The notes beneath the pieces were generated by a model. It searched no databases. It worked only from the letters and a program-made list of their open reading frames with translations, and was not told the DNA's origin. This document shows, one piece after another, positions 3,801 through 61,800 of a stretch of DNA of 64,000 nt. The DNA comes from Acorus gramineus (Eukaryota > Streptophyta > Magnoliopsida > Acorales > Acoraceae). The position numbers and the translations under genes are program-made. The stretch's first letter is position 1; each line of letters begins with the position of its first letter. The stretch spans positions 18,488,378 through 18,552,377 of the forward strand of contig CM060855.1 of assembly GCA_030737835.1 (NCBI GenBank). Direction: 5' to 3'.

Positions 3801-6365
3801 GGTGCCGAGGTGTCCTGTCCGATAGATTTCTCTTCTACGGCGGAACATCTCACATGTATCTTTATTTTGCTTTTTTTTTTTTTTTTTTTCATATTTGTAA
3901 TTTGGGTATAGTTTTTCAGATACAAGGGCAAGTGCCTACCATTTAAATCTAAAAAAAAATGCCTTCAAAGTATATATTTTTGAGACTGAGTGTATCAAAG
4001 CTCCTGGAAAAAATATGTACAATAGGCAAGGAAGCACACAATCAAATATGCCTCCCATGTTTTCCTAGACAAAACTAGAGAGAAACTCTCAAACACAGCT
4101 CAAAGAGTCAAGGAGACAAAACATGCATGATCCATGATGCCAAGCTTTTGTAGCGTGATTGTAGTGAATAAAAGGTAACATGTGCTAACAATCTTTCTAA
4201 ATTCTAATAGAGGGTGTTGTTATACCCAGTCTTTACATATAGTCTCATGTGTAATCTCATTTCGTTACTGAAATATAGAATTTGTTAAATAAAATGTGTT
4301 TTTATGTTTTTTTTGTGTACATCTATGTGGAAAAATATTAGACTCAACCATGTTCCTTTCACCAATGTAGTCTATAGTCTTTTTGGTTTTCCTAAAAATA
4401 GTATACCCCTATTGAGGTATTTTATAATCATAAAAAATGAAAAATATATTTCAATAAATTGTATAGACTCAATCATAGCATGTGAAAAAAATTTGTAACG
4501 AGTTCTATACCTTGTTACGAGAGTGCAGGTGATCAAAAAGGTATATAAAGTTGTAAATGGAGATATAGAATGAGCTGAATGTAACAACTACAATTATTGA
4601 AGTACATACTATATTTTTATGAAAAATATATTTCAATTCATTAATTGTATAAAACAAAATTAAAACATATGAACACTAAATGTGAGAATGTAAAGAGGGT
4701 GGTCCCTAAAATTAATCTTCCATATGATTTCTAGAATGGTGGACTTGATACGTGGACAAGTTTTACACAAGTGTAAGTCATGATAGAAATACCTAATTCA
4801 AATTAATCTTAGAATAATAATTGAGGTATACCAGTGATGACAACATTCTCAACTCCATTAGCATGCAATAGGCTGATGTGGCGCCCACCAGGCCTCTCTC
4901 TTCCTCTCCCATATGAAGGCAATGGTTTAATCAGTGGCCACTCCTTTGGGTCCTGATTTTTTTTTTGGTTCCATCACTTCAATTCAATAAACACATCAAT
5001 AAATAAATAAATATATAAAACAAATGCATTTGTTAAATCAAATCACTATCAAATGAAAGATCAACATGTTGGACTCTTTCTTTGTCCTAATCTTAATGTG
5101 TGTCACATATCCTCATGTGGATGGAATAATGGTTGGTAGTCCCAATTTTGTTCTGGAATATATATCTTTCTTTATATAAAAATGATACATTCATGTGGCT
5201 TTATTTTGAGTCTCTTTCTCTCTTGATAAATCTGTTATTCAAAGACTAAAAAAATTGAAAGATATAGCAACCATTTTCCCTACCATCTTGTAGAGCTTCT
5301 TTTTTTTTTATGGCATGGGGAAATTTTTTTATTCTCTGTAGAAAAGTTGAGCCATCCATTGATTTCTCAAAACCACACATGTTCTCATTTGCCCATTTGG
5401 TAAAAAAATCAATCATGAGAAAATCAAAATCAATTTTTAATCAATTCCAAATAAAACCCAAAGTCTCACCAACCAATTCCAACAACAAATTCAAAACTAA
5501 ACAAAATAATATAAAACAAAACAAATAAAATAAATAATCTTCTGATTAATTTTCATCAAAAGAACAAAAAAAACAACCAAGGAACAAATTATAATCATCA
5601 GGTTCAATAATTTCAAAACCAAACCCACATTGTCATCAACCAAAGCTCAATAACAAATTCAAACCTAAACAAGAAAAAAAAAACATAAAAAAACCAACAC
5701 AAACAAATCTTCATCTAATTAACTTTCATCAAAAAACCAAAAACAAACAACTATAATCATTATATTCAATAATTTACAACCAATCCCCAAAAATCTCATC
5801 AACCAATAACAACACCATACTCAAAAAATAAACAAAAAAAAATCAATTCCCAATTAAATTTCATCAAAAAAATCCAAAAAAAAATCATTCATAATAAATA
5901 ATTAAAACTCTCACATACCTGTGATCCCAATATAACAGCCCCCTCCTCCAAATACAAAGTGAAGTTACTAGTCAAGTTGAAGCTCCCTGTGACCCACCTC
6001 CCCTTAGGCACCACAAGCCTTCCCCCGCCGCCCCTCGCGATCGTCTCCACCGCCCTCCGAAACGCCTCCGTATTCGACGTAATTCCGTCTCCCACCCCTC
6101 CAAATTCCTCCACCGTCGCCACCACCGTCGCCCTATCCAACTCTCTCACCCTATAAAACCCTTCACAAGTCTTTCCCGTGGCGACCCTTGTCGATCGCAA
6201 CGGAGGAAGAGAAGGAGAAGGAGGAAGAGGAGGAGGAGATGAATTGGACGAAAATTGAAGAAACCATGTGAACCCTAATAGGGTTGTGAGTGAGAGGAGG
6301 AGTGCCCATGATGGCCTTGTTAGGGTTCCCCACAAGGTGTTGAAGCATGGGTTATTGACATCCAT
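802..6365 (-). CDS. GH28 polygalacturonase-like protein, membrane-anchored (5 exons)
   Basis: Exons on the minus strand are 6365-5919, 4952-4832, 2657-2483, 1716-1646 and 1445-802. The phases close to 485 codons plus stop. Residues 1-19 are followed by a hydrophobic segment at about 20-38, which looks like a type II signal anchor. The rest is a GH28 right-handed beta-helix domain. Visible motifs are NTDG (265-268), GDD (287-289) and RIK (354-356), which contain the catalytic aspartates and the substrate-binding arginine/lysine. The usual GHG motif reads GVG (325-327), so the conserved histidine is missing. To my knowledge this occurs in one plant clade of 'probable polygalacturonases'. Family role: hydrolysis or remodelling of pectin homogalacturonan at the cell wall; activity here is uncertain. 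The start is the first ATG of exon 1, just before the anchor. The last exon is strikingly GC-rich compared with its surroundings. Intron 2 (4831-2658) holds repeat insertions. Confidence 0.94.
3737..3960 (+). mobile_element. tRNA-derived SINE-like unit in GH28 intron 2
   Basis: A 12-base stretch at 3750-3761 (TGGTCGAGTTGG) fits the pol III box A consensus TRGYNNARNNGG. About 60 bases downstream, CTGTCCGATAG (near 3815-3825) is a weak box B match. The unit continues through a T-rich stretch to an A-rich end near 3960. It does not fold into an intact tRNA that I can support, so a degenerate SINE head or a tRNA pseudogene is the better reading. It lies antisense to the host gene. Confidence 0.45.
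4212..4591. repeat. Foldback repeat with GTTGTTA-type ends
   Basis: The left end reads GGGTGTTGTTATACCCAG. The right end, read on the opposite strand, is TAGTTGTTACATTCAG, so the termini are imperfect inverted repeats around an AT-rich core. Related 5' ends occur at 6775, 10111 and 62578, and in reverse at about 41032. This is a dispersed, probably non-autonomous family lying within GH28 intron 2. Confidence 0.45.
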
Positions 6366-6933
6366 GCTTGTTTTATTTGACTGATGAAACTATGGCTTTC
6401 AATGTTTTTGATGGAATAATATGTATTGATTGATTTTGGTTTTTGTTTTTTTTTTTTTTTTTTCATTGGGCGGAGAAAACGTGATCCGTTATGAACGGTG
6501 TTGACATTTAATTTTTGTATTTGATTTTATTTATTTATTTATTATTTGATTATTGGATGGTATTTCTTGGCTTCACCGCCAATAACGGCAATCGTTGACT
6601 CGGCATTAAATATGTATATATATATATATATATATATCTTATATTATACAGAGGATTTTAAAAAAAAAAAAATTGAAAATCTGTGAGAGATTTTTAGTCC
6701 GATTTGGGCAACTATGCAAGTTATCCGGAGAAAGAAAGACATTTATGTATAAGGAATAAATAAGTTTCTTTTATGGGCGTTGTTACACTCAGTTATATTT
6801 TTATAGTCTAAAATATAATCTTTTATATCTCTTTAAAAATTCAGTTAAGTATACTTGAATAGAACGATATACACTTTTTATCAAAACTTAAACCTTATTA
6901 AAAAAGTGAAAATCTATGAGATATTTAGGCTTA
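6366..6933. other. Upstream region of GH28 gene with (TA)n and repeat
   Basis: This is the likely promoter side of the minus-strand polygalacturonase-like gene. It holds a T-run near 6446-6463, a (TA)n microsatellite near 6610-6637, and, from 6775, a member of the GGGCGTTGTTACACT dispersed family. No gene was seen. Confidence 0.5.
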
Positions 6934-10478: not shown

Positions 10479-10632
10479 ACATAGTCCAATTTGACAAACA
10501 CAAAGTCCCCATTCACCAAAATTAATTCCCATATCCCCTTACTTCAACCACTTCTCAGACATCAAAAAAGGCCTCCCTTCCCCCCCATCTCCAAACTCCA
10601 AAAACCACCACCACCATCACCGCAATCAAAAT

Positions 10633-11604
10633 ATGGATAGAGAGCCAGAAGAGCTCCAATTCCTAGGCTTCTTTGGCATATGCAAAGAAGCCACAACCAT
10701 CATAACATCCCTAAGGAGACTCTTCACCCAACTCACTCTCTCCTTCATCCTCCCCCTCTCCCTCATCTTCCTCATCCACAGCCAAATCTCGAACCTGATC
10801 TTCTCCAAGATCGACAAGAATGAGACCGCCCTCGAGACAGCCCTAGACGGCAGCCCTACCCAGGACCGCCGCCTCTCCCGCCTCTCGTCCGAATGGACCG
10901 CCTTCCTCCTCTTCAAACTCGCCTACCTCATATGCCTCCTCATCCTCTCCCTCCTCTCCACCTCCGCCGTCGTCTACACCGTCGCTTGCGCCTACACCTC
11001 CAAGGACACCACCTTCAAGAAGGTCATGAGTGTGGCCCCTAAAGTTTGGAAAAGGCTCATGGTCACCTTCCTATGGAACTCCGTCGTGGTCTTCGCCTAT
11101 AATTCAACCGTATTCTTCATTCTCGTTGTCATTCTCATTCTATTCATCAATGGCCCTTACACGGCTGGACAAACAATCCTGATCGTTGTCGGGGTCCTGT
11201 ACCTCGTCGGACTAGTCTACATAACCGTCATATGGCGTCTCGCATGCGTTGTTTCGGTGTTGGAGGACTCGTACGGCCTCCGCGCCATGAAAAAGAGCAA
11301 GGAATTGATCAAGGGGAAGATGCCCGTCGCAGCGCTCGTGTTCTTCCTCCTCATAGTCTCGTATTTCGGGGTACTCGTGTTGTTCGAGGGCGGGGGAGTG
11401 GTGGGGAAGGCGGTGGCGGTGGTGCTGCTTTCGGTGGTGGTGCTGATGGGGCTGGTGGTGGAGACTGTGATATATTTTGTGTGTAAGTCTTACCACCATG
11501 AGAGCATAGACAGTTCTGCTTTAGCTGATCATTTGGAAGTGTATCTTGTGGGGTATGTACCCCTCACAGCCAAGGATGTGCAGCTTGAGCAGTTCCATGT
11601 CTGA
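10633..11604 (+). CDS. Multi-pass membrane protein, tandem copy 1 (At1g31130/At4g19950-like)
   Basis: Single exon, 323 aa. The protein starts MDREPEELQFLGFFGICKEA and has about six hydrophobic spans (near 35-55, 95-125, 145-175, 180-205, 230-250 and 255-280). The conserved soluble element EDSYGLRAMKKSKELIKGK lies before the fifth span. This matches the plant family annotated around Arabidopsis At1g31130/At4g19950/At5g44860 (sometimes called 'polyadenylate-binding protein 1-B-binding protein'), whose biochemical function is not established. I assign no activity. The ATG at 10633 is the only one compatible with the conserved start and is shared with the paralogue. The coding sequence is GC-rich with few A/T-ending codons, unlike its surroundings. 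The 3' flank matches copy 2 for only about 50 bases, then runs into MITE sequence at about 11665. Confidence 0.9.
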   Translation: MDREPEELQFLGFFGICKEATTIITSLRRLFTQLTLSFILPLSLIFLIHSQISNLIFSKIDKNETALETALDGSPTQDRRLSRLSSEWTAFLLFKLAYLICLLILSLLSTSAVVYTVACAYTSKDTTFKKVMSVAPKVWKRLMVTFLWNSVVVFAYNSTVFFILVVILILFINGPYTAGQTILIVVGVLYLVGLVYITVIWRLACVVSVLEDSYGLRAMKKSKELIKGKMPVAALVFFLLIVSYFGVLVLFEGGGVVGKAVAVVLLSVVVLMGLVVETVIYFVCKSYHHESIDSSALADHLEVYLVGYVPLTAKDVQLEQFHV

Positions 11605-14774: not shown

Positions 14775-16921
14775 AAGCTTTTCTATATTGATTAGTTTAA
14801 CCAGGTATTAAGATTTTAAGGATAACTTATTCTAATTTTAAGATATTAAAAATTTATTAATTATAATTCCCCAGGACCCTCAATCAGACAATTAAAAAAT
14901 TGAACAGTGAGATATATATCTTTTTCTAATTTTAAATCCCCGAAATCAACATTCGAATTCCGACTCTTGTTATTTCCAGCATCTCTCTCTCCCTCACTCC
15001 CTTAAAAAAAAGTTTATTTGTGTTTCTCTCATATACATCTTTCTATCTCCTTGTATAATATTGTGAGCAACTCCTCTTTTAAATTTTTTTTATAATTTTC
15101 TCATTCCATTAAAATTTAATTTTTTAGTTATTTATTGAGCGTATATAATAATGTAGAAGATTTTTAATTTAAATTATTATATAATATTGTGTATTCATTT
15201 TGAAATATTTATAATTTAAAATAAAATATTCAAATAATCTAAATTTTTTTATAAAATATATAAGGCCCCCATTTTAAAAATTTACCTAGTGTCAGCCATA
15301 GATTCAATTATTAGGGTTGGTCTTGAAAGTGGGCATAAATGCTATCACATGGGGATAATTGTCCGCGGTTTATCTTCATTATTTTTTTATACCAATGGAA
15401 ATAATTTGTCATTCCACTCACTATCCTCGTAATTACTCTTTATCCAACCATTTATCCCCTTGTCAAACCAGTCCTATAGAATTATTACAAAGGCTCCGCC
15501 TGAAATCGGGTTTGAGAGTCAATTTTTCTTTAAAAGCTGGGTTTAAAATTGAGTTTGCAGGAAGCTGTCTCTCTATAGATAATGAAAAGCTAGATTTTGA
15601 ACATTTTTCTTACAAAATTGTGTCTGTAACTTTTAATTAAGCTTCATTGGAAACTAGTTTGGAAAACTCAATTTCTTGCAAACCCAAAAGCTTCACAAAC
15701 CCGTTTTTAAATTAGACCTAAAAAAGTTGATTTAAAGCGTTTGGAAATACATTTGAGTGGACTACTTTTTTAGAAAACAAAAAAGTGTAAACGTCATTTC
15801 AAATGACTCCAAAAAAAGCAAGTTTAATTAAAGAATTTGTTTCAATTTTTAGTAGAAAAATATGCTTTTTAAAATGCAAAGAAAATGAGCTCCTTGAAAT
15901 TATAGTTTGATTAAATTATTTTATAAAAATCATAATTTTCCAACGTGTTTCCAAACCTAGCCTATTAAAAAATTATCTTTTTTTTTTGTAATTTAAATAA
16001 ATTTTTATAAATCTATATGATTTGTTGTGTGGAATTTGTCAGATGACAGTATATATAATTTATTTTATGGGGAGCAAATCATGTTAGGAAATGCTAAAGA
16101 TTTTCAATGCGGATTCAAACATATTTTTACGTTCGGTTTTTCAAATTCCCCACCTCATTTTTTGGAGGATTCTATGTTGAAAGCGGATGATTTTCAAACT
16201 CACACAAATCCAAACATGTTTTCACGTTCAACTTTTCAAACTCTCCACCTTTTTTTGGAATAGTAAAAAAAAGGAAGATTTTCAAACACAGATCTAAACA
16301 CACTTTTACATTTAGCTTTTTAAACTCTCCACCTTTCCTTTATGATGTAAAAAAAAAATCTGACTAATAAAAGAACTACTAAAAACACATTTATCAATGG
16401 GGGAATTTAAAACTCTATATTTTAAAATCTCAACATCTCAATCCAGTATCCAACGTAATGTCTGTGAAGTAATCTTCTATTTCAATGCATGAACCACAAG
16501 ACAATTTTCATCTGACTTTAATTTGGTTCTGGTTTTTAATTCCAAGAATGCATAATCACTTTAAAGAGTATTATATATGTATATAAGAGTATTATATATA
16601 TGCTTGGAAAGACCAACATGCATTGGTTTTGTTAAAAACTTTTTAATGACTTATTTAATTTACAAATAGTATATCCCACATGTGATCCCTGTTTATCTAT
16701 GTATCAATATAAATATTCATGAAAAAAATTAATCCCTGTGAAATAAGAATTTAATAGAAAAGAAAAGATGTTCTAAGAAACCATTATGTGACACACAAAT
16801 CCCACTCTCACCGAGGGGTAATCATATCATACACATGAAATTTCTGGGAATCTAATTCTACCTTTCCTTTCATGACCAAGTCAATGCTTCTTTTTCTAGA
16901 AAAAAAAAATCATAGCCCAAC
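14711..16921. other. Spacer upstream of membrane-protein gene copy 2
   Basis: AT-rich, no gene recognised. It contains an (AT)n microsatellite near 14741-14771 and a diverged tandem repeat at 16100-16370. Confidence 0.5.
16100..16370. repeat. Diverged tandem repeat, three units of ~90 bp
   Basis: Three consecutive units each contain a GATTTTCAAACNCA-like start, AAACA(C/T)(A/G)TTTTYAC(G/A)TT and TTTTCAAACTCTCCACCTTT-like ends (around 16110, 16190 and 16276). The units differ at many positions, so the expansion is old. Confidence 0.5.
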
Positions 16922-17044
16922 TTGACCAACACAGAGTCCCCATTCACCAAAATTAATTCCCATATCCCCATACTTCAACCAGTTCTCAGACATCTAAAAA
17001 GGCCTCCCTTCCCCCCCATCTCCAAACTCCACAGCCAACAAAAT

Positions 17045-18010
17045 ATGGATAGAGAGCCAGAAGAGCTCCAATTCCTAGGCTTCTTTGGCATATGCAAAGA
17101 AGCCACAACCATCATAACATCCCTAAGGAGACTCTTCACCCAACTCACCCTCTCCCTCATCCTCCCCCTCTCCCTCATCTTCCTCATCCACATCCAAATC
17201 TCGAATCTGATCTTCTCGAAGATCGACAAAAACGAGACCGCTCTCGAGACAGCCCCAGACGGCAGCCCTGCCCAGGACCACCTCCTCTCTCGCCTCTCGT
17301 CCGAGTGGACCGCCTTCCTCCTCTTCAAACTCGCATACTTCATATGCCTCCTCATCCTCTCCCTCCTCTCCACCTCCGCTGTCGTCTACACCGTCGCTTG
17401 CGTCTACACCACCAAGGACACCACCTTCAAGAAGGTCATGAGTGTGGTCCCTAAAGTTTGGAAGAGGCTCATGGTCACCTTCCTATGGAACGCTGTCGTG
17501 GTCTTCGCCTATAATTCAATCGTATTCTTCCTTCTCATTCTCATTCTGTTCATCACTGGCCCTGGCACGCCAGGAGTTATAGTCCTGGTCGTCGTCGGGA
17601 TCCTGTACTTCTCCGGACTAATCTACATAACCGTCATATGGCGCCTCGCGGGCGTGGTTTCGGTGTTGGAGGACTCCTACGGCCTCCGCGCCATGAAAAA
17701 GAGCAAGGAATTGATCAAGGGGAAGACGCCAGTCGCGGCGCTCGTGTTCTTCCTCCTCAACGTCTCGTATTTCGGGGTACTCGTGTTGTTTGAGGGCGGG
17801 GGAGTGGTGGGGAAGGCGGCGGCGGTGGCGCTGCTTTCGGTGGTGATACTGATGTGGCTGGTGGTGGAGACTGTGATATATTTTGTGTGTAAGTCTTACC
17901 ACCATGAGAGCATAGACAGGTCTGCTTTGGCTGATCATTTGGAAGTGTATCTTGGGGAGTATGTGCCCCTCACAGCCAAGGATGTGCAGCTTGAGCAGTT
18001 CCATGTCTGA
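17045..18010 (+). CDS. Multi-pass membrane protein, tandem copy 2
   Basis: Single exon, 321 aa, about 90% identical by eye to copy 1 at 10633-11604. It has the same start, MDREPEELQFLGFFGICKEA, the same hydrophobic spans and the same EDSYGLRAMKKSKELIKGK element. It is two residues shorter in the loop after the third/fourth hydrophobic span (VFFLLILILFITGPGTPG against copy 1's longer version). The reading frame is open upstream to 16922, but that stretch is not conserved as coding in copy 1, so I start at 17045. Both copies keep open frames and conserved residues, which suggests that both are functional. Function: unknown plant membrane-protein family, as for copy 1. Upstream sequence is shared with copy 1 back to about 16905. 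Confidence 0.9.
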   Translation: MDREPEELQFLGFFGICKEATTIITSLRRLFTQLTLSLILPLSLIFLIHIQISNLIFSKIDKNETALETAPDGSPAQDHLLSRLSSEWTAFLLFKLAYFICLLILSLLSTSAVVYTVACVYTTKDTTFKKVMSVVPKVWKRLMVTFLWNAVVVFAYNSIVFFLLILILFITGPGTPGVIVLVVVGILYFSGLIYITVIWRLAGVVSVLEDSYGLRAMKKSKELIKGKTPVAALVFFLLNVSYFGVLVLFEGGGVVGKAAAVALLSVVILMWLVVETVIYFVCKSYHHESIDRSALADHLEVYLGEYVPLTAKDVQLEQFHV

Positions 18011-43477: not shown

Positions 43478-43486
43478 ATAGAAATT

Positions 43487-44486
43487 GGGTTCAGAGACTC
43501 TGTGAAGTCTCCACAGAGAGACCCTGTGTAACTTGGGTGGATGGACGACGCGTGTAAAATGGATCACGTGATCTCACGTGAACGACTAACCAAACGACTA
43601 CCAAAAAAAGTGACCGTTGTTGATGCCGTTAGCACTTATTCGAATTCATTTTCACAGAGAGTCAGATCATCTCTCCCATCTGTACCCCCATCTCTCTGTG
43701 GCTCCCCCCTCCTATCGTCACAGAGTCTCCCTCACCGAAGTCCCGCCGCACCCTTGCCGATCTCCCGTGGTCCTACAGCCACCTCGTGAGTTTCACTTCT
43801 TGTTACAGTTTCTCTTTTTTTTTTTATTTTTTGTAATTTGAATGTAGTTCTCTCTGGATTGTTTAGGGTTCTGACATGGATTTTAGTGGTTTTCATTTGA
43901 TTATTTGAATGGGTTTGTTTCAGATATGGATTTCAGTGGTTTTCATTTGATTATTTGAATGGGTTGAGTGGATTTGATTCTGTTATCTGAATGGGTTAGT
44001 TTCAGATATGGGTTTGAGTGGATTTCATTTCCAACACTTCAAAATCCTACTTTTTTTTTTTTTTTGCGATAAAGCCCCTGTATGACTTTTCTTTCTTTTT
44101 TTTCTTTTTTTTTTTTTGCATCAAACCCATATTTGAAGTCTTGTTAATTCAATGAGAATGTATATATATAATGTATAATAAAAAGAAATTTACTACTGAT
44201 GATGACTTCTACCTTTAACTCAACACGATAATGAAATTAAGCTCCCAAGTATCTAGCAACTCAGGAAATTTTTTAAATCCCATACTGACCTACTACAAAC
44301 TCTACTGTGGTGGGGGAAGTGATATAATGGATTGTATATATTCAGAATAAAATATACTGCTTTTGTGGGAAATTTTTAAGGGAAATATGCATATGTGCAC
44401 AAATTTTTAAAGCCATGATAAGTTGCTTGTGATCCATACATGTTTAGTCATCTTGTGTTGTTGCTTTTTGAATCCTTTCAGTATTT
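43487..44486 (+). repeat. MULE left terminal inverted repeat
   Basis: It matches the reverse complement of 49774-50773 along almost its full length. It includes a GC-rich outer 300 bp with the donor-like CCACCTC|GTGAGT (43785/43786), ~50-bp subrepeats containing TTTCATTTGATTATTTGAAT (43876-44030), and T-runs. Similarity stops abruptly after CTTTCAGTATTT. Confidence 0.9.
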
Positions 44487-44532
44487 TCAATTGTCTTGTT
44501 AAATGTTCTAAATTATGTTTTTTTTCTTATAG
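43786..44532 (+). other. Inferred 5'UTR intron of the MULE transposase
   Basis: The donor CTC|GTGAGT lies in the TIR and the acceptor TTCTTATAG| at 44532 lies just outside the TIR. The transposase ATG at 44550 follows 17 bases later. The same donor occurs in the right TIR upstream of the GRF gene. Inference from splice-site sequences only. Confidence 0.5.
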
Positions 44533-44549
44533 GTGAACATTGAGTTGTT

Positions 44550-46908
44550 ATGGAAGGAGACAACGTGATTGTGGGTGAATGTAGCTTTAATGGTATACCT
44601 GAAGTTGGTATGGCATTTGATTCTGAAGATAGTGCCTATCAATTTTGCAACACATATGCAAGATCAATTGGATTTAGTATCTGAAAAAGTGATGCATTCA
44701 AATCCAATGGCATAGTGAGAAAGAGAAAATTTTATTGTTCTAAAGGAGGGAGGAAAGGGGTTGATAAGCGAAAAGTCTTACACCCACAGCGCGATACAAG
44801 AACAGGATGTGAGGCACATATGGTTATCACTTATCGGTCTTCTGGTGCTTATTAGGTCACTAAATTTGAACAAAACCATAATCATGATCTTGTATCAACC
44901 CCCTTGCGCCATAATTTGAGGTCACATAGAAAAATAGAAAATGGTCAAGCTGCTAGGTTGATATCATAGATGGTTTAGGATTAGCATAAAAAACAGTTAT
45001 GGATTTGATGAGTGGACAAGTTGGAGGGAGAAGAAATATTGGTTTTATTTTGAATGATGTGAAGTCAAACAGTTATGGATTTGATGAGTGGATAAGTTGG
45101 AGGGAGAAGAAATATTGGTTTTATTTTGAATGATGTGAAGTCTTACCTGCGCACCAAAAGGGAAACAAGAATGAAGAATGGAATTGCGGGTGCTCTTATT
45201 CAGTATTTCAACAAGAAGAAAAAGTAAAATCCATCATTCTTTCACTCAATGCAACTTGATGCCGATGAACAAATAACCAATATGTTTTGGGCCGATGCAA
45301 GGTCTATTGTCAATTATGCACATTATGGTGATGTAATTTGCTTCGACATGACCCATCGGACAAATAATCATGGAAGACCATTTGCACCATTCGTTGGGGT
45401 GAATAAATCATAGGCAAAAAATTATTTTTGGTGGCGCATTACTTTATGATGAGAAAGCTAACTCATTTATTTGGTTGTTTGAAACTTTTCTTCAAGCAAT
45501 GTCTGGGAGACATCCTAAGACTATTCTAACAGATCAGTCAGCGGGGATAACCAAAGCTATTTCAGTTGTTCTATCAGAGACTCGTCATCGGCTACGTGTG
45601 TGGCACTTGACCCAAAATGCAACAAAACATCTTGGACATCTTTATGCTATTGAAGTTTCAGAAGTTCCTTCTATGCTTGTATTTTTTGGTACGAGACGGA
45701 GGAGGAGTTCCTAGCTGCTTGGAATAACATGCTTCAAAATTAAAATCTTTAGGACAATAAATGGCTCCAACAAACTTTTGCTAAAAGGAGAAATTGGCTC
45801 TAGTGTAATGGAGAGACACATTTTGCGCGGACATGAAGAGTGCACAACGTAGTTAAAGCTTCAATGCTCTTCTGAGACGCTACTTGATCTCAAAGTATGA
45901 TCCGTTACGTTTCTTTCAGCATTTTGATAGGGTTATGGATGACCGGCGTGAAAGTGAATTGAGCGCTGATTTCAAGATGATGAATACTGTACCGGTAATT
46001 CCATATCACACTTTGATGGTGCCATGTGTTGCAAATGTTTACACGCCAGAGATCCTTCAGTTGTTTCAAGCAGAATATGAAAAATCTCTTAATTGTTCTA
46101 TCTAGATTCATGGGGAGGTGGGGCATATGATAGAGTACAAAGTTCACAGAGACCGTGGCAATGAAAGAACCATTTTATTTGATTCAGCTACCAAAATGGT
46201 TACCTGTAGCTGCATAAAATTTGAATTTATGGGTATCCAGTGTTGCCATATTCTAAAAGTTCTTAATCACAGAAACATCAAATTTCTTCCACCACAATAT
46301 ATCTTGAAGAGGTGGACAAGAGATGTAACATCTGGTGTGGTGCATGATATTTGTTCCTCTTCAATACAGGTTGATGTGTGTTTATTATATTAATTGAAAA
46401 TGTCATGAGTTGATTGTATGGTTTTATTGTAAAGTAATGTGTTTTTCTTCATTACAAATTGACCCTATTTCTGAATTGGGAAGGCGTTTTCAAGAATTAA
46501 GTCATGGTCTCATTCAAGTAGCATCCAAGGGAGCTGAAACACCCCATTCAACGGACCTACTTAAACGCCGCACAAATGAGATCATGAAGGAGGTTGAGGA
46601 AGATTTGAGGAAATCATCTCAAAATTGTCAAGATGATAATGTGCAAGATGAGGTGGATAGCATTTCGAATATTGAGGCTGCTAAAGGCTTCAAATGAAGA
46701 GGAAAGAAAACTGTGGGAGGGAAGCCTAAAAAAAGATGGATCGGCGTGTTGGGGAAGAAAGAGTTCACGAGGTCAAAGCTCTCAAACTCAACGTGCGTCC
46801 CATAATGCCATTGAGAGCCCTCAACCCTTTGGGCCAATGGTTGGGAACTATGATAGTAGTCAAGGAACGACTTCAATGACTCAATTGCTTCAGGTATTGC
46901 GAATATAA
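44550..46908 (+). pseudogene. FAR1-like MULE transposase, multiply disrupted
   Basis: The start is intact (MEGDNVIVGECS). A FAR1 N-terminal DNA-binding region follows, with GMAFDSEDSAYQFCNTYARS and FEQNHNHDL. The MULE DDE region shows FDMTHRTNNHGRPF, FETFLQ and ILTDQSAGI. A SWIM zinc finger carries CSC...CCH (about 46205-46250), and a C-terminal tail follows. Lesions are in-frame stops at 44682-44684, 44853-44855, 45225-45227 and 45411-45413, a 76-bp internal tandem duplication (44991-45142), and several frame changes around 44970, 45415 and 45750-45880. The first two stops fit CGA-to-TGA and TGG-to-TAG transitions. It would have catalysed cut-and-paste transposition of the element and cannot do so now. 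Exon borders towards the C-terminus are uncertain. Confidence 0.88.
44991..45142 (+). repeat. 76-bp tandem duplication inside the transposase pseudogene
   Basis: AAACAGTTATGGATTTGATG begins at 44991 and again at 45067. The two 76-bp copies differ at one base (GGACAAG/GGATAAG). It disrupts the frame upstream of the DDE domain. Confidence 0.9.
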
Positions 46909-46914
46909 AATACA

Positions 46915-49080
46915 TTTTAAATATTTTTTACTTTTCCAAATGGTCAATAATATATGCATTAATATATGTAGGCACAAGAATCCCTTTTTTTTATCCTACT
47001 CAAATGAGTCAAGCGTCAATTTTTTCTGAAGAATGGAGGAGCACAGATTAACAATACTGGTACTCACTCAGGGTAGTAAAAACTAAAGCAAATGTAAGTA
47101 TATACTAGTCTACTTGATTTCATATAAATGAGTTCTTTACAAGTATTAACATATATCAATTTATATCACAGGTGCTAGATGGAGTTTGAAGTTTTAAACA
47201 ATTCAGGGTTGTCTGGGCCCATTTTGTCTCTTGAAGTTGCATCCATTTCCATATTCAGTGGAGTAGAGTTGGTGTTGTGGAGTTTTTAATCAAACATCAT
47301 ATTGTGTGTGTTCAATACTTTCAAGTTCTACTTGATATTTAAGTGTTCAAAACTGAATGATGCACTTGTTATGTTATGTTTGAAAAAAATGCATTTCTAC
47401 TAGTAGTTTGGTATTTGAAGTGTGCATTTCTATTGATATTTTGATGCCAGGTCATAAGGATTGCATTCTGTTCATTGAGTAAAACCAGCTATATCTATTT
47501 CTATTTTTTGTAGGATCTTAGTTGAGCACCATGAGCTGGATACATAGATGGCACTCTTCTATTCCACTTTCCTTGATGCCAGCTAAACAACAACTACTCA
47601 ATTTAGCATTACCAAATTTACAAAATTGTTATACCTAAAAAAATTTGTGTACATACCTAAAAAAAAGTCTTTTGCATTGGCTAACTATTTTGATAATGTT
47701 ATATAAGAATAGTAATTGTGTTTTTGTGTTTTCTTCATCTCAGAATGGTCATATGTGTATGTTCAGCTTTGTTTGCTGATTTATATGAAAGAAATGGTTA
47801 AGAAGTGTTTTAGATCTTTGTAAAATCTCTAGTAGATCCAAACAATAAAAGAAATCGCATTACATCTTCACAAATGATCCTTATTCATTCAAACCATGTA
47901 TAGAAGAAAAACAGAAGGACAAACCACTCCATGTCTATGACATTTGGTTGTTTGTCTTCCCATGTATGCTGTATATGGCATTTCAGTTAACAAAAATTAC
48001 ATTTGGTTCCATGTCTGCTGTTGGTTACATAGTTATGGTCTGTGAGAATGTTGTATATGCTTTTTCTTCCAAAGGTGTCTCCTTTATCTTTGATGAGTGC
48101 AAATTGAAGCATGGGGGAGGTAGATGAGGAAAGATAAAGAAAAAATTGAATTCATGTGATGCAGGAAAGCTATGAATAAATCTGCTTTGATTCACACGGG
48201 AGAAATAGAGGTAGTTTGATATGAAAAAAATGATTTATCTTTTCCAAACTTAGAATCCACAGCATTTAAGAATCAAATATATCTCATTGCAAAAAGCTTT
48301 CTTTATAAATTGTTACTTTCTAGTTGTCAAATGTTTTTTCACACGGACCTTTCCTTTCCAGCACCTCATTCTTCCATACAAACATACTCTGCTTCACATG
48401 GAACAGCCATAAGAGCTACCATAGCATAGCTACCATAAGAATCACATATTGTTGGATCAAAGTGAAGTTCACTTTATTGGGATGGTCAGTAGTCTTTCCC
48501 TACTTGGAAGCCTTGTAACAAGGATGGGGAATACTCTATTTTATGACAATGACAAGGCTTATGGGATCACAAGTATGCTCCAAGACATGAATCATATTAA
48601 GGCTGGAGTCATTTCTTAAGTGCAAAAACAGTCCAGTCTCCCCAGTCCACACCGGTCTATTTTATGACAATGAGAAGGCTCCCCAGTCCAATCTAATCCA
48701 GTCTAGTCCAAGCAATTCAAACCAAGCAGCCAAAGTCCACTTCTTCAAGCTCCCCAGTCCAATCTATGCATTCCAAACCAATGCAGTGTAGTCCCAATCC
48801 AGGTCTGACAATGAACCAAGTTCAGTCTGCCATTCCAAACCAATAAGCTTAGTAACACATTCACCACAACTAATACCCAGTTCCTGTCACCAATTCACCA
48901 AATAACAATAATTTCCATTCATCTCAAAATTTTTATTGGTTAAACATAGCTAATTGAACATCCAACAAAAATTTTCACCAAATAACAACAATTCACCAAA
49001 TAACGATAATTTTCATTGATTAAACATAGCTATTTGAACATCCAACAACAACATAAACATCATTGAAGATGCATTAGTCT
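46915..49080. other. Non-coding interior of the MULE
   Basis: No gene recognised between the transposase and the GRF gene. It contains an irregular array of CCAGTCCAATCTA/CCAGTCTAGTCC motifs (48630-48850) and a ~60-bp diverged direct repeat containing CACCAAATAACRA and TTAAACATAGCTA (48890-48990 and 48985-49050). Confidence 0.6.
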
Positions 49081-49610
49081 CTAATATATTGCTTTGATAC
49101 ATTGAATAACCAAAAGACCAATTAAGCACCACATAATCATTGTCAGCCTATTGTTCATCGTCTTCAAATACTTTTTCATAGTCTCTTCATGGTTTTCTAG
49201 TTGAAACTTCAATTCAACAATTGGATCATCCGCGTCATCGATCCATTCAAAAAATCGACAGTCTTGAGGAGTCTACATTGGAAATAATGACAAACAAAAA
49301 AAGAATGCTTATTAGATCTCACTCATTAGTAATGAAACACTTGAAAATCATTGAATTCAATTAACTCACCTTGTTAAAAGGACACAATAAAATCTCTGAC
49401 CTTTACTATGTTCTTGACGAAAAGTATAAATCGGATATTCGCCTTTCTTACAACGACATTCACGTGGCCGAATATGCGTGGGAAGTGGCCTAACATTTGA
49501 ATTACGTAGGCTATTGACCTGTTGTGAAAAATTAGCTAAGAAAATTCATTCATTCATACATTCCATCAAAACTTGGAATACAAAAGGTAAACACTTACGC
49601 TTTTTGACAT
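49081..49610 (-). pseudogene. GRF-type zinc finger protein of the MULE, frameshifted (At4g04775-like)
   Basis: Exons are 49610-49599 (MSKS), 49518-49370 and 49272-49081. The zinc-finger halves are CRCKKGEYPIYTFR...GQRFYC and CRFFEWIDD, matching the GRF finger (CxC...GRxFxxC...CxFFxW). A coiled region with LENHEETMKKYLKTMNN follows, then a C-terminal hydrophobic tail (MIMWCLIGLLVI), typical of plant At4g04775-like proteins. Exon 2 ends two bases out of phase with exon 3. The sequence TTATTGTGTCC suggests a GT duplication just after the FYC codons, so the gene is probably broken by that one event. Function in the family is unknown; zinc and nucleic-acid binding is inferred for the GRF finger. 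It faces the transposase convergently within the same element. Confidence 0.75.
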
Positions 49611-49725
49611 AGTTGCTTGGAAGCCTCAAAAGAGAAAATGGAAGTCTTTGATTGCAAGTGATAGAGCACAATGCTTTCAATTCAGCTTGGAACAGTACGA
49701 TTATAACATGAAGAAGAAGATGGTG

Positions 49726-50475
49726 CTGTTAGGAAAAAAAAAAAAAGAAACAAACCTATGTGATGAAGATTGGAAATACTGAAAGGATTCAAAAAGCAAC
49801 AACACAAGATGACTAAACATGTATGGATCACAAGCAACTTATCATGGCTTTAAAAATTTGTGCACATATGCATATTTCCCTTAAAAATTTCCCACAAAAG
49901 CAGTATATTTTATTCTGAATATATACAATCCATTATATCACTTCCCCCACCACAGTAGAGTTTGTAGTAGGTCAGTATGGGATTTAAAAAATTTCCTGAG
50001 TTGCTAGATACTTGGGAGCTTAATTTCATTATCGTGTTGAGTTAAAGGTAGAAGTCATCATCAGTAGTAATTTTTTTTATTATACATTATATATACATTC
50101 TCATTGAATTAACAAGACTTCAAATATGGGTTTGATGCAAAAAAGAAAAAAAAAGTCATACAGGGGCTTTATCGCAAAAAAAAAAAAAAACAGTAGGATT
50201 TTGAAGTGTTGGAAATGAAATTCACTCAAACCCATATCTGAAACTAACCCATTCAGATAACATAATCAAATCCACTCAAACCCCATATCTGAAACAAACC
50301 CATTCAAATAACAAAATCAAATCCACTCAAATCCATATCTGAAACAAACCCATTCAAATAATCAAATGAAAACCACTGAAATCCATATCAGAACCCTAAA
50401 CAATCCAGAGAGAACTACATTCAAATTACAAAAAATAAAAAAAAAAGAGAAACTGTAACAAGAAGTGAAACTCAC
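49726..50475 (-). other. Inferred 5'UTR intron of the GRF gene
   Basis: The donor CTC|GTGAGT at 50475 (minus) in the right TIR is identical to the donor in the left TIR. The acceptor CTAACAG| lies at 49726, outside the TIR. Inference from splice-site sequence. Confidence 0.45.
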
Positions 50476-50773
50476 GAGGTGGCTGTAGGACCACGAGAGA
50501 TCGATGAGGGTGCGGCGAGGCTTTAGTGAGGGAGACTCTGTGACGATGGGAGGGGGGAACCACAGAGAGATGGGGTACAGATGGGAGAGATGATATGACT
50601 ATATGTGAAAATGAATTCGAATAGGTGCTAGCAGCGTCAACAACGGTCACTGTTTTGGCTAGTCGTTTGGTTAGTCGTTCACGTGAGATCACATGATCCA
50701 TTTTACACGCGTCGTCCATCCACCCGAGTTACACAGGATCTCTCTGTGAAGACTTCACAGAGTCTCCGAACCC
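49774..50773 (-). repeat. MULE right terminal inverted repeat
   Basis: Inverted counterpart of 43487-44486. The outer 300 bp is highly similar. The ~50-bp subrepeat region (50215-50400) carries about two more units than the left arm. Confidence 0.9.
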
Positions 50774-50782
50774 ATAAAAATT

Positions 50783-58838: not shown

Positions 58839-61800
58839 CTATTGCGGATCGAAACAATAAGAGTGAGTATAACCTGATGCCGAGCTGGCCTTAACTCGTT
58901 TACAGGAACTCGCAAGACTGACCAGAGAGGGAAGAGGCTGTGGCACAGGAACATTCATCGATCGATACCACCTCCTCAAACTCGAATTATAACTCTTTGA
59001 AGATCCCATGAACGTACTATCATCCTTCTCCGTTTCATATTCCTTACATTCGCTTGATTCTTTAGGTTGCAACTGAGCAACCTCATCCTCTCGCAGTGAG
59101 GATAATGGTTCTTTTTCATATGTTGCCCCTGGCAAAGGATTAACTTTGACAGCCACTTCTCTCTTCTCTTCATTCAATATACTAAAAGCTTGAACACCAA
59201 GTCTTGCCTTTCCAAATAAAGTGATTGAGCCTTTCTTGGATGGAGGAGATAGGTTCAAGCGCGCTTCTGAAATGTTCACAGACACATCTCTTACTTCCAA
59301 TTCTCTGCATTCGGAAGGGGTATCAAAACGAGTCTCCAAAACAGCTGAGATTGCAGATGTTCGTGGTGAAGTAGATCTTTCGATATCGATGTCGAGTAGC
59401 TTCCAAACACAAGCATCCGCACTCAGTTTAGACAGGGAGCAATGTTTCCTCACATAATCAAGGTCCATGGCTCTACAGGGTGGAGTCGTTGAAACAACCC
59501 ATTTTGGCTGGAGAAGCTGCAACGCCCACTCCAACTCTTCTCTTGATGAATGCATGGAATAACAGACATGCCAAACACCAAACTGGTCTCGTTGTGCTTC
59601 TGTGTATTTCAGCTTTTTTGGTCTCTCGGCTTGCACTTGTTCTTCCAAGGCGTACCACTGTGAGGAAGGGCGAATGAAGAGGGGCTCTGGTTCGATATTT
59701 AAACGTGCCTCTGCAAGTTTTATACTCGCTTTCTCATATAGCTTCGGAAAACCTTCAAAGAGCTGCACCAAGGAAAACAAAAGCTTAAGTTATCTCTGGT
59801 TTATGACACAAATGTCATCATATAATACATTATCTTTAACTCCTACCTGGAAACGAGAGGCTGGATCCTGCGTTATAATATTTGGAGCGATGAGCGTGAG
59901 AGCTTGAAAGAACCCTGCGTGCTTCATCTGATCAATGTATATTTTGGATCCAAATGTTTTTGACACTTCAACAAGAATCTCTTCCTGGCCAAGAAGATCG
60001 CATGCTAGATAAATGACAGGGGCATTTGGATGCTTCCATATGCAATTGATAACCTGCATCTCACATTTCATAAAAAAAAAAAGATTTGCATTGCCAAAGT
60101 TAGCAACACGTATAGCTACATATATATTATATATTTGCATGCATATATCTCTGTGTGTGTGTGTGTGTAACTTTTGACATAGTGATGCATAAGACAGTGA
60201 TTTTGAATGCTCTACTGCACCTGTTCGATGGCTGAATGTTTGCTTGGGATCTTAAGAGAGTGTCTGCCAAATGTGCAATCAAGGAAAACATAATCAAGAC
60301 AACTATTGGTTTCTCTTCCTTTCTTGGGTATGTACTTGGGGGGCAGTTTTTGCAGACATTCTGGGGTGAGCCTACAATCTCCGGTGTGCAATATATTTCC
60401 AAAATCCCCTTCAAACAAGAACATGACAGCTCCTGGATAACAGAAAATAAAAAAAAATGACCCAACTATTAACTCTAATGATTGCACAACCAGATAAGCA
60501 ATCACATGTTCACTCAAAATTAAACAAGACATTTCTCAACCACTAAAGCCTTAAAAACTTGACTATATTGCCATCAAGTTTATCTAACTACTGATATACA
60601 GTGGGAGCTAACAACCTAATCAATCATGTAAATATTCACTCAAAATCAAACATGACAAGGTTTCCCAACCACTAAGGCATGAACAGCTTGCCCATGGCTT
60701 GTCATCATGTTGACCCAACCATTCATATGTTGTTATGCTTTAAAGCATGAATCAGTTGATTATAGGGTACATAATGAATTTTTATTTCTAATCCATCAGC
60801 TTGGTAGACTGTAATCCAATATACATGACAAGCCTTTCTATTTCTTTGAATAAGATTATGTACAATTCAACAAGACGGTGGTAGCCCAAATGAACAAATA
60901 TGATATTAAAAATCTCATTATAGATATCTGAATGACAAGCACTTCCAGACTTCCATCCAAATAACTCTCTTTCAAGTAGATTCATTTTTTAAATGTTATG
61001 TCTACAATGTTTTTATGACCTCTGAAGGCAACCCGTGCTTAGCCAGTCAGAGACACATTTTTTCTCCACCAACTGAATGAATCTCTAAATTCTGAATGAA
61101 AATGTTAAAAGTAAAGTGTGGTGTGATATGGAAGCCTATGAATAACTATGTGACCACTTTCAGTAATCCGGTGAAAGCATTATTCCCAATATTGCTCGAG
61201 GACTCTAAAAGTGGAAGGACCCAGCTGAAATCAATTTAAATTTCTGAAGTTATTATTTTTTAGTCTGCCTTGTGGGACATAAATCATAAACTGTTTGATT
61301 CTATATTATTATGATACCATTATTTATGGTACTCCAACATAAGACCTATTATAAACTATTTAGTGGAAAGGGGAAGTCTCAAACTTTGGGAAAAAATAGC
61401 AACTTACTTCATGACATCACTATGGAGCTCACCCAGTTAGATAAAATAGGATGTTCTAATTCTTTGAGTAGCATATTAGTATGGTTATTTAGTTTGTCTA
61501 GCTTTTGGGCAAAAAATGTACCGAAGCTGCAGAAATTATCATAATGAAACGTCAAGTAACAGAGGCATCTACATCCTCTACAATTTATCATAATGATACA
61601 TCTGTTTCCTTCATCCAGGTGGTCATTTTAAGAGTTTGTTCATCCCTACATCCTCTATAATTTATTTTAATAATATCAATCAACTGTGTTACCTTTTGCA
61701 AAAGCAAGAGTACCGCCAATGTCCACTGACTTTGATGGTACAACAAAAGCACCTCGACCATAAAAAAAATTGATCGAAATATATGATTGATATGACCAAC

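Follow-up and report, generated by a model that had tools for sequence, protein, structure and literature searches.

A GRF zinc finger gene as a probable accessory gene exchanged among plant DNA transposons

We analyzed a 64,000-nucleotide stretch of the Acorus gramineus genome (hereafter the window; NCBI GenBank assembly GCA_030737835.1, contig CM060855.1, positions 18,488,378 to 18,552,377 of the forward strand), in which a Mutator-like element (MULE) carries a transposase gene and a gene for a GRF zinc finger protein with a C-terminal hydrophobic tail (Table 1). An earlier note on this DNA had claimed that the element has both ends, terminal inverted repeats (TIRs) of about 1 kb and a target-site duplication equal at eight of nine positions, and that it encloses two convergent genes. 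Comparison of the inverted repeats and flanks bears out the boundaries, and a transposase gene on the forward strand and a GRF gene on the reverse strand were found inside the TIRs. The TIR arms (compared up to position 44522) pair with 962 matches and 53 mismatches, an identity of 94.8% with gaps left out, and all but two of the 30 terminal bases of the element pair. TIRs of this length are a MULE trait, and the 9-bp duplication fits the MULE range of 8-11 bp.

Table 1. Features of the MULE, numbered from the first nucleotide of the window. L040 is an intact relative in the same genome.
Feature	Position	Strand	Basis
Element	43487..50773		Both ends bounded by TIRs and duplication
Left target-site duplication, ATAGAAATT	43478..43486	.	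Equals 50774-50782 at 8/9 positions
Left TIR, ~1.04 kb	43487..44525	+	Inverted repeat pairs I1-I6
FAR1/MULE/SWIM transposase gene, broken	44550..46697	+	Pfam on fragments, match to L040
Transposase, FAR1 region	~44550-44940	+	Match to L040
Transposase, MULE domain	~45333-45620	+	Pfam PF10551
Transposase, SWIM	within 46106-46393	+	Pfam; C-terminal part then runs to 46697
GRF zinc finger gene with C-terminal hydrophobic tail, broken	49081..49610	-	Splice borders, translation
GRF gene exons	ATG 49610-49599; finger 49518-49370; tail 49272-49081	-	GT/AG borders
Right TIR	49735..50773	-	Inverted-repeat pairing with left arm
Right target-site duplication, ATAAAAATT	50774..50782	.	8/9 equal to left flank

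Both genes of the window element are damaged. The transposase gene contains in-frame stops and frame shifts and so does not have the open frame of an autonomous MULE. Its fragments score above the Pfam cut-offs for MULE (54.4 bits versus a cut-off of 27.6, E = 1.8e-14) and SWIM (32 bits versus 19.6, E = 8.7e-8), and FAR1 was scored on L040 (E = 3.2e-23); in the L040 transposase FAR1, MULE (104.8 bits) and SWIM all exceed their cut-offs. The GRF gene has a frame shift in its finger exon. Measured against the GRF profile PF06839 (cut-off 25.9), the finger exon of this family on its own, taken from L040, reaches 19.4 bits (E = 0.0012) and the GRF protein of a Harbinger-type element, L049, falls just short with 24.3 bits, while the one-exon relatives L051 and L046 exceed the cut-off with 42.8 and 33.9 bits. 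Counted from the inner TIR ends, the start codons at 44550 and 49610 are some 25 and 125 bp further in, which makes it probable that the TIRs contain the promoters of both genes. We read the window element as a decayed member of a FAR1-type MULE family with two genes.

All of our searches were confined to this one plant genome (398.6 Mb, 137 contigs). The TIR gave 91 matches, and the best 40 of 63 candidates for the GRF region and the best 40 of 138 for the transposase region were scored, giving 40 matches each. Among the copies listed, a GRF gene lies within 8 kb in all 11 whose transposase is at least 94% identical, the window included. Three of the five TIR-family copies that were fetched (L040, L041 and L042) have both genes in convergent orientation, with a 591-residue open first part of the transposase and open finger and tail exons. 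At L040, 30 of 30 terminal bases pair and the 10-bp duplication is perfect and C-rich. L039 keeps the GRF gene (with stops) beside a single remaining piece of transposase, and in L043 neither gene was seen between TIRs that are flanked by a perfect 9-bp duplication. The target-site search under its settings gave no row for L045, L046, L047, L053 or L054, only palindrome-like inner rows for L041 and L042, and simple AT repeats as the best rows for L051. A one-off capture of the GRF gene, which the earlier note had considered, is ruled out by the 11 of 11 close copies that carry it and by its recurrence beside at least three types of transposase. In a separate observation, family TIR matches face each other 50 kb apart at G000:C4:25897043-25947456, with a window-type GRF gene at 25898269; such a layout could be one very large element, a nested insertion or a pair of half elements.

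We then asked how often GRF genes lie beside transposases genome-wide. The Pfam GRF profile returned 304 first-look candidates, of which the best 150 were scored, and merging within 1.5 kb left 147 loci. At least 100 of these 147 loci have a listed transposase no more than 8 kb away; 500 rotations of the GRF positions within their contigs gave 5.2 on average and never more than 12 (for contigs without a known length, the largest listed coordinate plus 5 kb was used). By comparison, the F-box control (the best 150 of 367 candidates) has a listed transposase nearby at 2 of 150 loci, and rotation gave 2.2 on average. When matches to the window's GRF region and those of a further GRF search were added, the count was at least 121 of 205, against 5.9 on average and at most 17 after rotation. 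Locus coordinates were copied by hand from the search outputs before neighbours were counted. That further GRF search contributed 19 of its 84 rows, the 65 excluded ones being repeats of loci already counted, second pieces or C-terminal-only matches. From the transposase searches we kept 78 of 113 L046-type, 63 of 64 L051-type, 93 of 112 MuDR-type and 133 of 157 Harbinger-type rows, some further Harbinger-type matches being unlisted; the excluded rows were additional pieces of kept loci or of loci from the window-transposase search. The neighbour counts are lower bounds because these lists are incomplete: two loci scored as lacking a transposase, C2:8774146 (L009) and C2:25172603 (L017), have unlisted transposase pieces within 1.5 kb.

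The 100 carriers comprise 49 Harbinger-type, 31 FAR1 and 20 MuDR transposases. Within the 147-locus set, the arrangement of the two genes follows the type of carrier, with MULE-GRF pairs convergent in 50 of 51 cases; in 48 of 49 Harbinger-type pairs the GRF gene follows immediately after the transposase, on its strand. The sole non-convergent MULE pair (G000:C43, 2024440 and 2028227) has its GRF gene on the transposase strand, 5' of the transposase. One could suppose that GRF genes and transposons are near each other by shared habitat, each being enriched in the same repeat-rich regions, as both are multi-copy and dispersed over contigs and rotated GRF positions meet transposases somewhat more often than rotated F-box positions (the means of 5.2 and 2.2 above). 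We rejected this explanation on the 100 of 147 observed against a rotation maximum of 12; the fixed orientation and the position of the GRF gene within TIR and duplication borders in L040, L052 and the window likewise leave it scarcely credible.

Fetched loci illustrate the range of carriers. L051 is a FAR1-type MULE with FAR1, MULE and SWIM above cut-off, and L048 was assigned to the same type through its 76% identity to L051. L047 is a MuDR-type MULE (PF03108 and MULE above cut-off, no FAR1 among the listed domains). L049 is of PIF/Harbinger type (DDE_Tnp_4, PF13359, at E = 8.6e-22), as is L050 by its 72% identity to L049. L046, chosen because GRF and transposase matches occurred together, has a transposase 77-90% identical to the window pieces and a different GRF gene. 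L047 to L051 are five GRF loci hand-picked from repeated subfamilies, whose neighbours were not known when they were chosen, and a transposase was found beside each; these loci are not a random sample because repeated subfamilies favour mobile elements. The earlier note had proposed that GRF genes are routinely MULE cargo. The proximity to transposases stands, but the carriers are not only MULEs, and the Harbinger-type copies with GRF genes rule out a MULE-only link. Its bolder idea, that such cargo or a putative accessory factor of transposition would explain the abundance of these genes, is largely right in this genome and applies more widely than stated, although not to every element. Adjoining two GRF-bearing elements we also observed long open frames (L049 6883-9198 and L051 1-1587), which we take to resemble retrotransposon polyproteins.

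GRF genes of one type are also found in two MULE lineages. L052 was classed as a MuDR-type MULE because its transposase is 53% identical to that of L047 across 259 residues; it has TIRs at 142-241 and 6348-6450 and an A/T-only duplication equal at eight of nine positions. Its GRF gene is of the window's type: the protein is 86% identical to that of L040 over 104 codons, and the GRF region aligns to the window element at 83% DNA identity across 871 columns, introns included. Since the L040 and L052 transposases are only 23% identical (over 161 residues), these comparisons indicate that the GRF cassette has passed between MULE lineages. In a midpoint-rooted DNA tree of 17 GRF loci, eight of them without an assigned transposase, the window, L040, L041 and L039 (assigned to the window family by its TIR) group together (99/97) and the L052 group is their sister (100/99). 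Further loci near MuDR-type transposases (L062, L065, L066 and L069, the last on a long branch) fall around these two groups. Transfer from the MuDR to the FAR1 lineage is the simpler reading of this topology, short of proof.

We estimated the ratio of nonsynonymous to synonymous substitution rates (dN/dS) by the method of Nei and Gojobori for a few pairs. For the GRF gene it is 0.30 between L040 and L052, 0.28, 0.29 and 0.28 in the three pairs among three sequences of a 112-residue type, and 0.16 between L048 and L051, where dS is saturated at 2.1. Transposase pairs gave 0.24, 0.18 and 0.27. Over this longer span the GRF gene looks constrained in the same way as the transposase, within a small number of pairs.

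Several observations weigh against reading the GRF gene as a working part of these transposons. Forty-seven of the 147 GRF loci have no listed transposase, and some of them may be host genes. Because four of the five transposase queries originated next to GRF genes, the exception being the window transposase query, the neighbour counts reflect copy number and cannot be treated as independent. The young GRF pair L026/L024 has a dN/dS of 0.83 on 20 changes. When counted from the transposase side, many copies are without a listed GRF gene, part of this absence being under-detection as the GRF list is incomplete. The earlier note had proposed checking whether copies retain both genes; this held for the 11 close copies and not below 94% transposase identity, where 28 of 29 copies have no listed GRF gene and 1 has one. 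A listed GRF gene accompanies 14 of 24 L046-like copies (hand-picked at an identity of at least 89%) and is missing from 10, three of which have a C-terminal-only GRF protein match within about 2 kb. It accompanies 15 of 63 L051-type rows (48 without), 28 of 93 MuDR-type rows (65 without) and, within 2.5 kb, 49 of 133 Harbinger-type rows (84 without). No GRF gene was seen in the fetched loci L044, L045 and L053, of which L045 and L053 are bounded by TIRs; at L044 no TIR was found within the stretch examined. L054 and L055 are 98% and 99% identical to L046 on the transposase side and do not have the GRF side, and the GRF-less L055 has a perfect 9-bp duplication.

Given such relatives, L055 with its perfect duplication among them, the GRF gene is either dispensable in cis or was lost from some copies after their last move, and L045, L053, L054 and L055 rule it out as an obligatory gene. 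In L046 the identity with the two GRF-less copies L054 and L055 breaks off at 5608-5837, inside an array of tandem repeats of about 50 bp, where recombination may have added or removed the GRF side. Elements of this kind, identical at 98-99% on the transposase side, could also be accommodated by passenger capture, in which MULEs took up a host GRF gene in Pack-MULE fashion and merely carried it along. MULEs do take up host fragments (PMC6446971), and the one young pair at 0.83 would suit a passenger. We consider this explanation quite unlikely in view of the whole GRF gene present in elements with an open transposase, its fixed orientation beside at least three transposase types, and the dN/dS of about 0.3 between older lineages, which for the few pairs available suggests constraint within transposons. 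L040-L042 differ from Pack-MULEs in having a transposase and a whole GRF gene with a dN/dS of about 0.3; a host parent was not sought.

These data make it very likely that the GRF gene genuinely belongs to the transposons, being under selection and common to several MULE lineages and PIF/Harbinger-type elements. The likeliest reading of its constraint, orientation and exchange between lineages is that it helps transposition, and it therefore looks like a transposon helper gene and not an ordinary plant gene. Taking identity and mode of action together, we find the best explanation, and on balance a probable one, to be that GRF is an accessory gene which plant DNA transposons can exchange.

All seven GRF proteins that we inspected have their strongest hydrophobic segment (Kyte-Doolittle means over 19 residues between 2.4 and 3.6) at the C-terminal end, where it stops 0-5 residues short of the terminus. 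The L049 protein has a second, weaker segment, which is probably intron read-through. With the hydrophobic segment at the C-terminus, the protein is predicted to be a membrane protein of the tail-anchored kind. Among solved sequences, a GRF repeat of NEIL3 (7omk, E = 6.2e-7) comes closest to the L051 GRF protein. As in APE2 and NEIL3 the domain is a GRF finger, and the Zf-GRF of APE2 is reported to bind single-stranded DNA (PMC6122073); unlike in those repair enzymes, of which it forms a part, here it is found in a small separate protein with a hydrophobic C-terminus. In the alignment the fourth cysteine of the Harbinger GRF type seems to be missing from its usual place, so the metal site of this type may differ.

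How the protein would act can be proposed tentatively. Transposase and GRF genes, starting just inside opposite TIRs and running towards each other, would be co-expressed from TIR promoters; the GRF finger would bind single-stranded nucleic acid while the C-terminal helix anchors the protein in the endoplasmic reticulum or nuclear envelope, and the protein might then aid a late step of transposition or shield the element from host repair or silencing. A broader version is possible if somewhat doubtful, namely that plant DNA transposons, MULEs and PIF/Harbinger elements alike, generally share tail-anchored GRF proteins as an exchangeable helper, which would hold single-stranded intermediates of transposition or repair at the nuclear envelope, and that most of the GRF genes annotated in plants are this same module. 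A different role would be that of an anti-silencing factor, which, like VANC, would act against the host's RNA-directed methylation or bind up small RNAs, without assisting cutting or joining directly. Accessory MULE genes with such a function exist, as with vanC in Hiun (PMC6446971), and loss of the GRF gene from some copies suits a factor acting in trans, but the hydrophobic tail indicates a membrane and not chromatin, and we regard this role as rather unlikely.

MuDR of maize, whose genes converge from TIR promoters, and Hiun, a VANDAL element, invite comparison with the Acorus elements. MuDR (mudrA and mudrB) is likewise a two-gene MULE with a transposase and a second protein (PMC6446971). 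Unlike in MuDR, the second gene here encodes a GRF finger with a hydrophobic tail, and the window transposase is FAR1-type, while those of L047 and L052 are MuDR-type. Hiun is a MULE that also carries vanB and vanC, and one of these additional genes acts against silencing; PMC6446971, which names mudrB, mutB, vanB and vanC among the extra genes of MULEs, contains neither a mention of a GRF domain nor the term 'grf'. In domain content, the FAR1-type transposases here resemble those of the Jittery-like elements of grape, with FAR1, MULE and SWIM (PMC2528002). The same source describes ULP1 as an accessory domain in more than one DNA-transposon superfamily, in KI-MULE, where it is in reverse orientation to mudrA, and in CACTA-ULP. 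ULP1 is a protease, unlike the zinc finger with hydrophobic tail found here in MULEs and PIF/Harbinger-type elements; its presence in MULEs and CACTA is the nearest precedent for a single accessory domain that occurs in two superfamilies. Our literature search, with thin coverage of subscription journals and preprints, found no paper tying GRF-finger genes to transposons. The sole paper returned by one GRF-transposon query uses "GRF" for a repeat-finding program, PMC8599713 does not contain 'grf', and a loose search on At4g04775, the gene to which the earlier note had likened the GRF gene, did not show that name among the entries listed.

Outside the MULE, the window contains two long open frames on the forward strand (10495-11601 and 16916-18007), about 5.3 kb apart, that share MDREPEELQFLGFFGICKEATTIITSLRRLFTQLTL and nearby residues and are probably a tandem gene duplicate. 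An open frame at 805-1476 on the reverse strand looks like that of a pectin-degrading glycosyl hydrolase, and a pair of neighbouring long open frames at 58842-60251, both reverse, may be a single host gene.

If this reading is true, a plant gene family of unexplained role would be re-assigned to transposons. This would bear on gene annotation and on lists of candidates from quantitative trait loci, in which GRF zinc finger genes have been named for zinc traits (PMC7729826). GRF would be the second accessory domain, after ULP1, to be common to unrelated superfamilies of DNA transposons, and the two-gene MULE would offer a concrete system for a direct test of the helper role.

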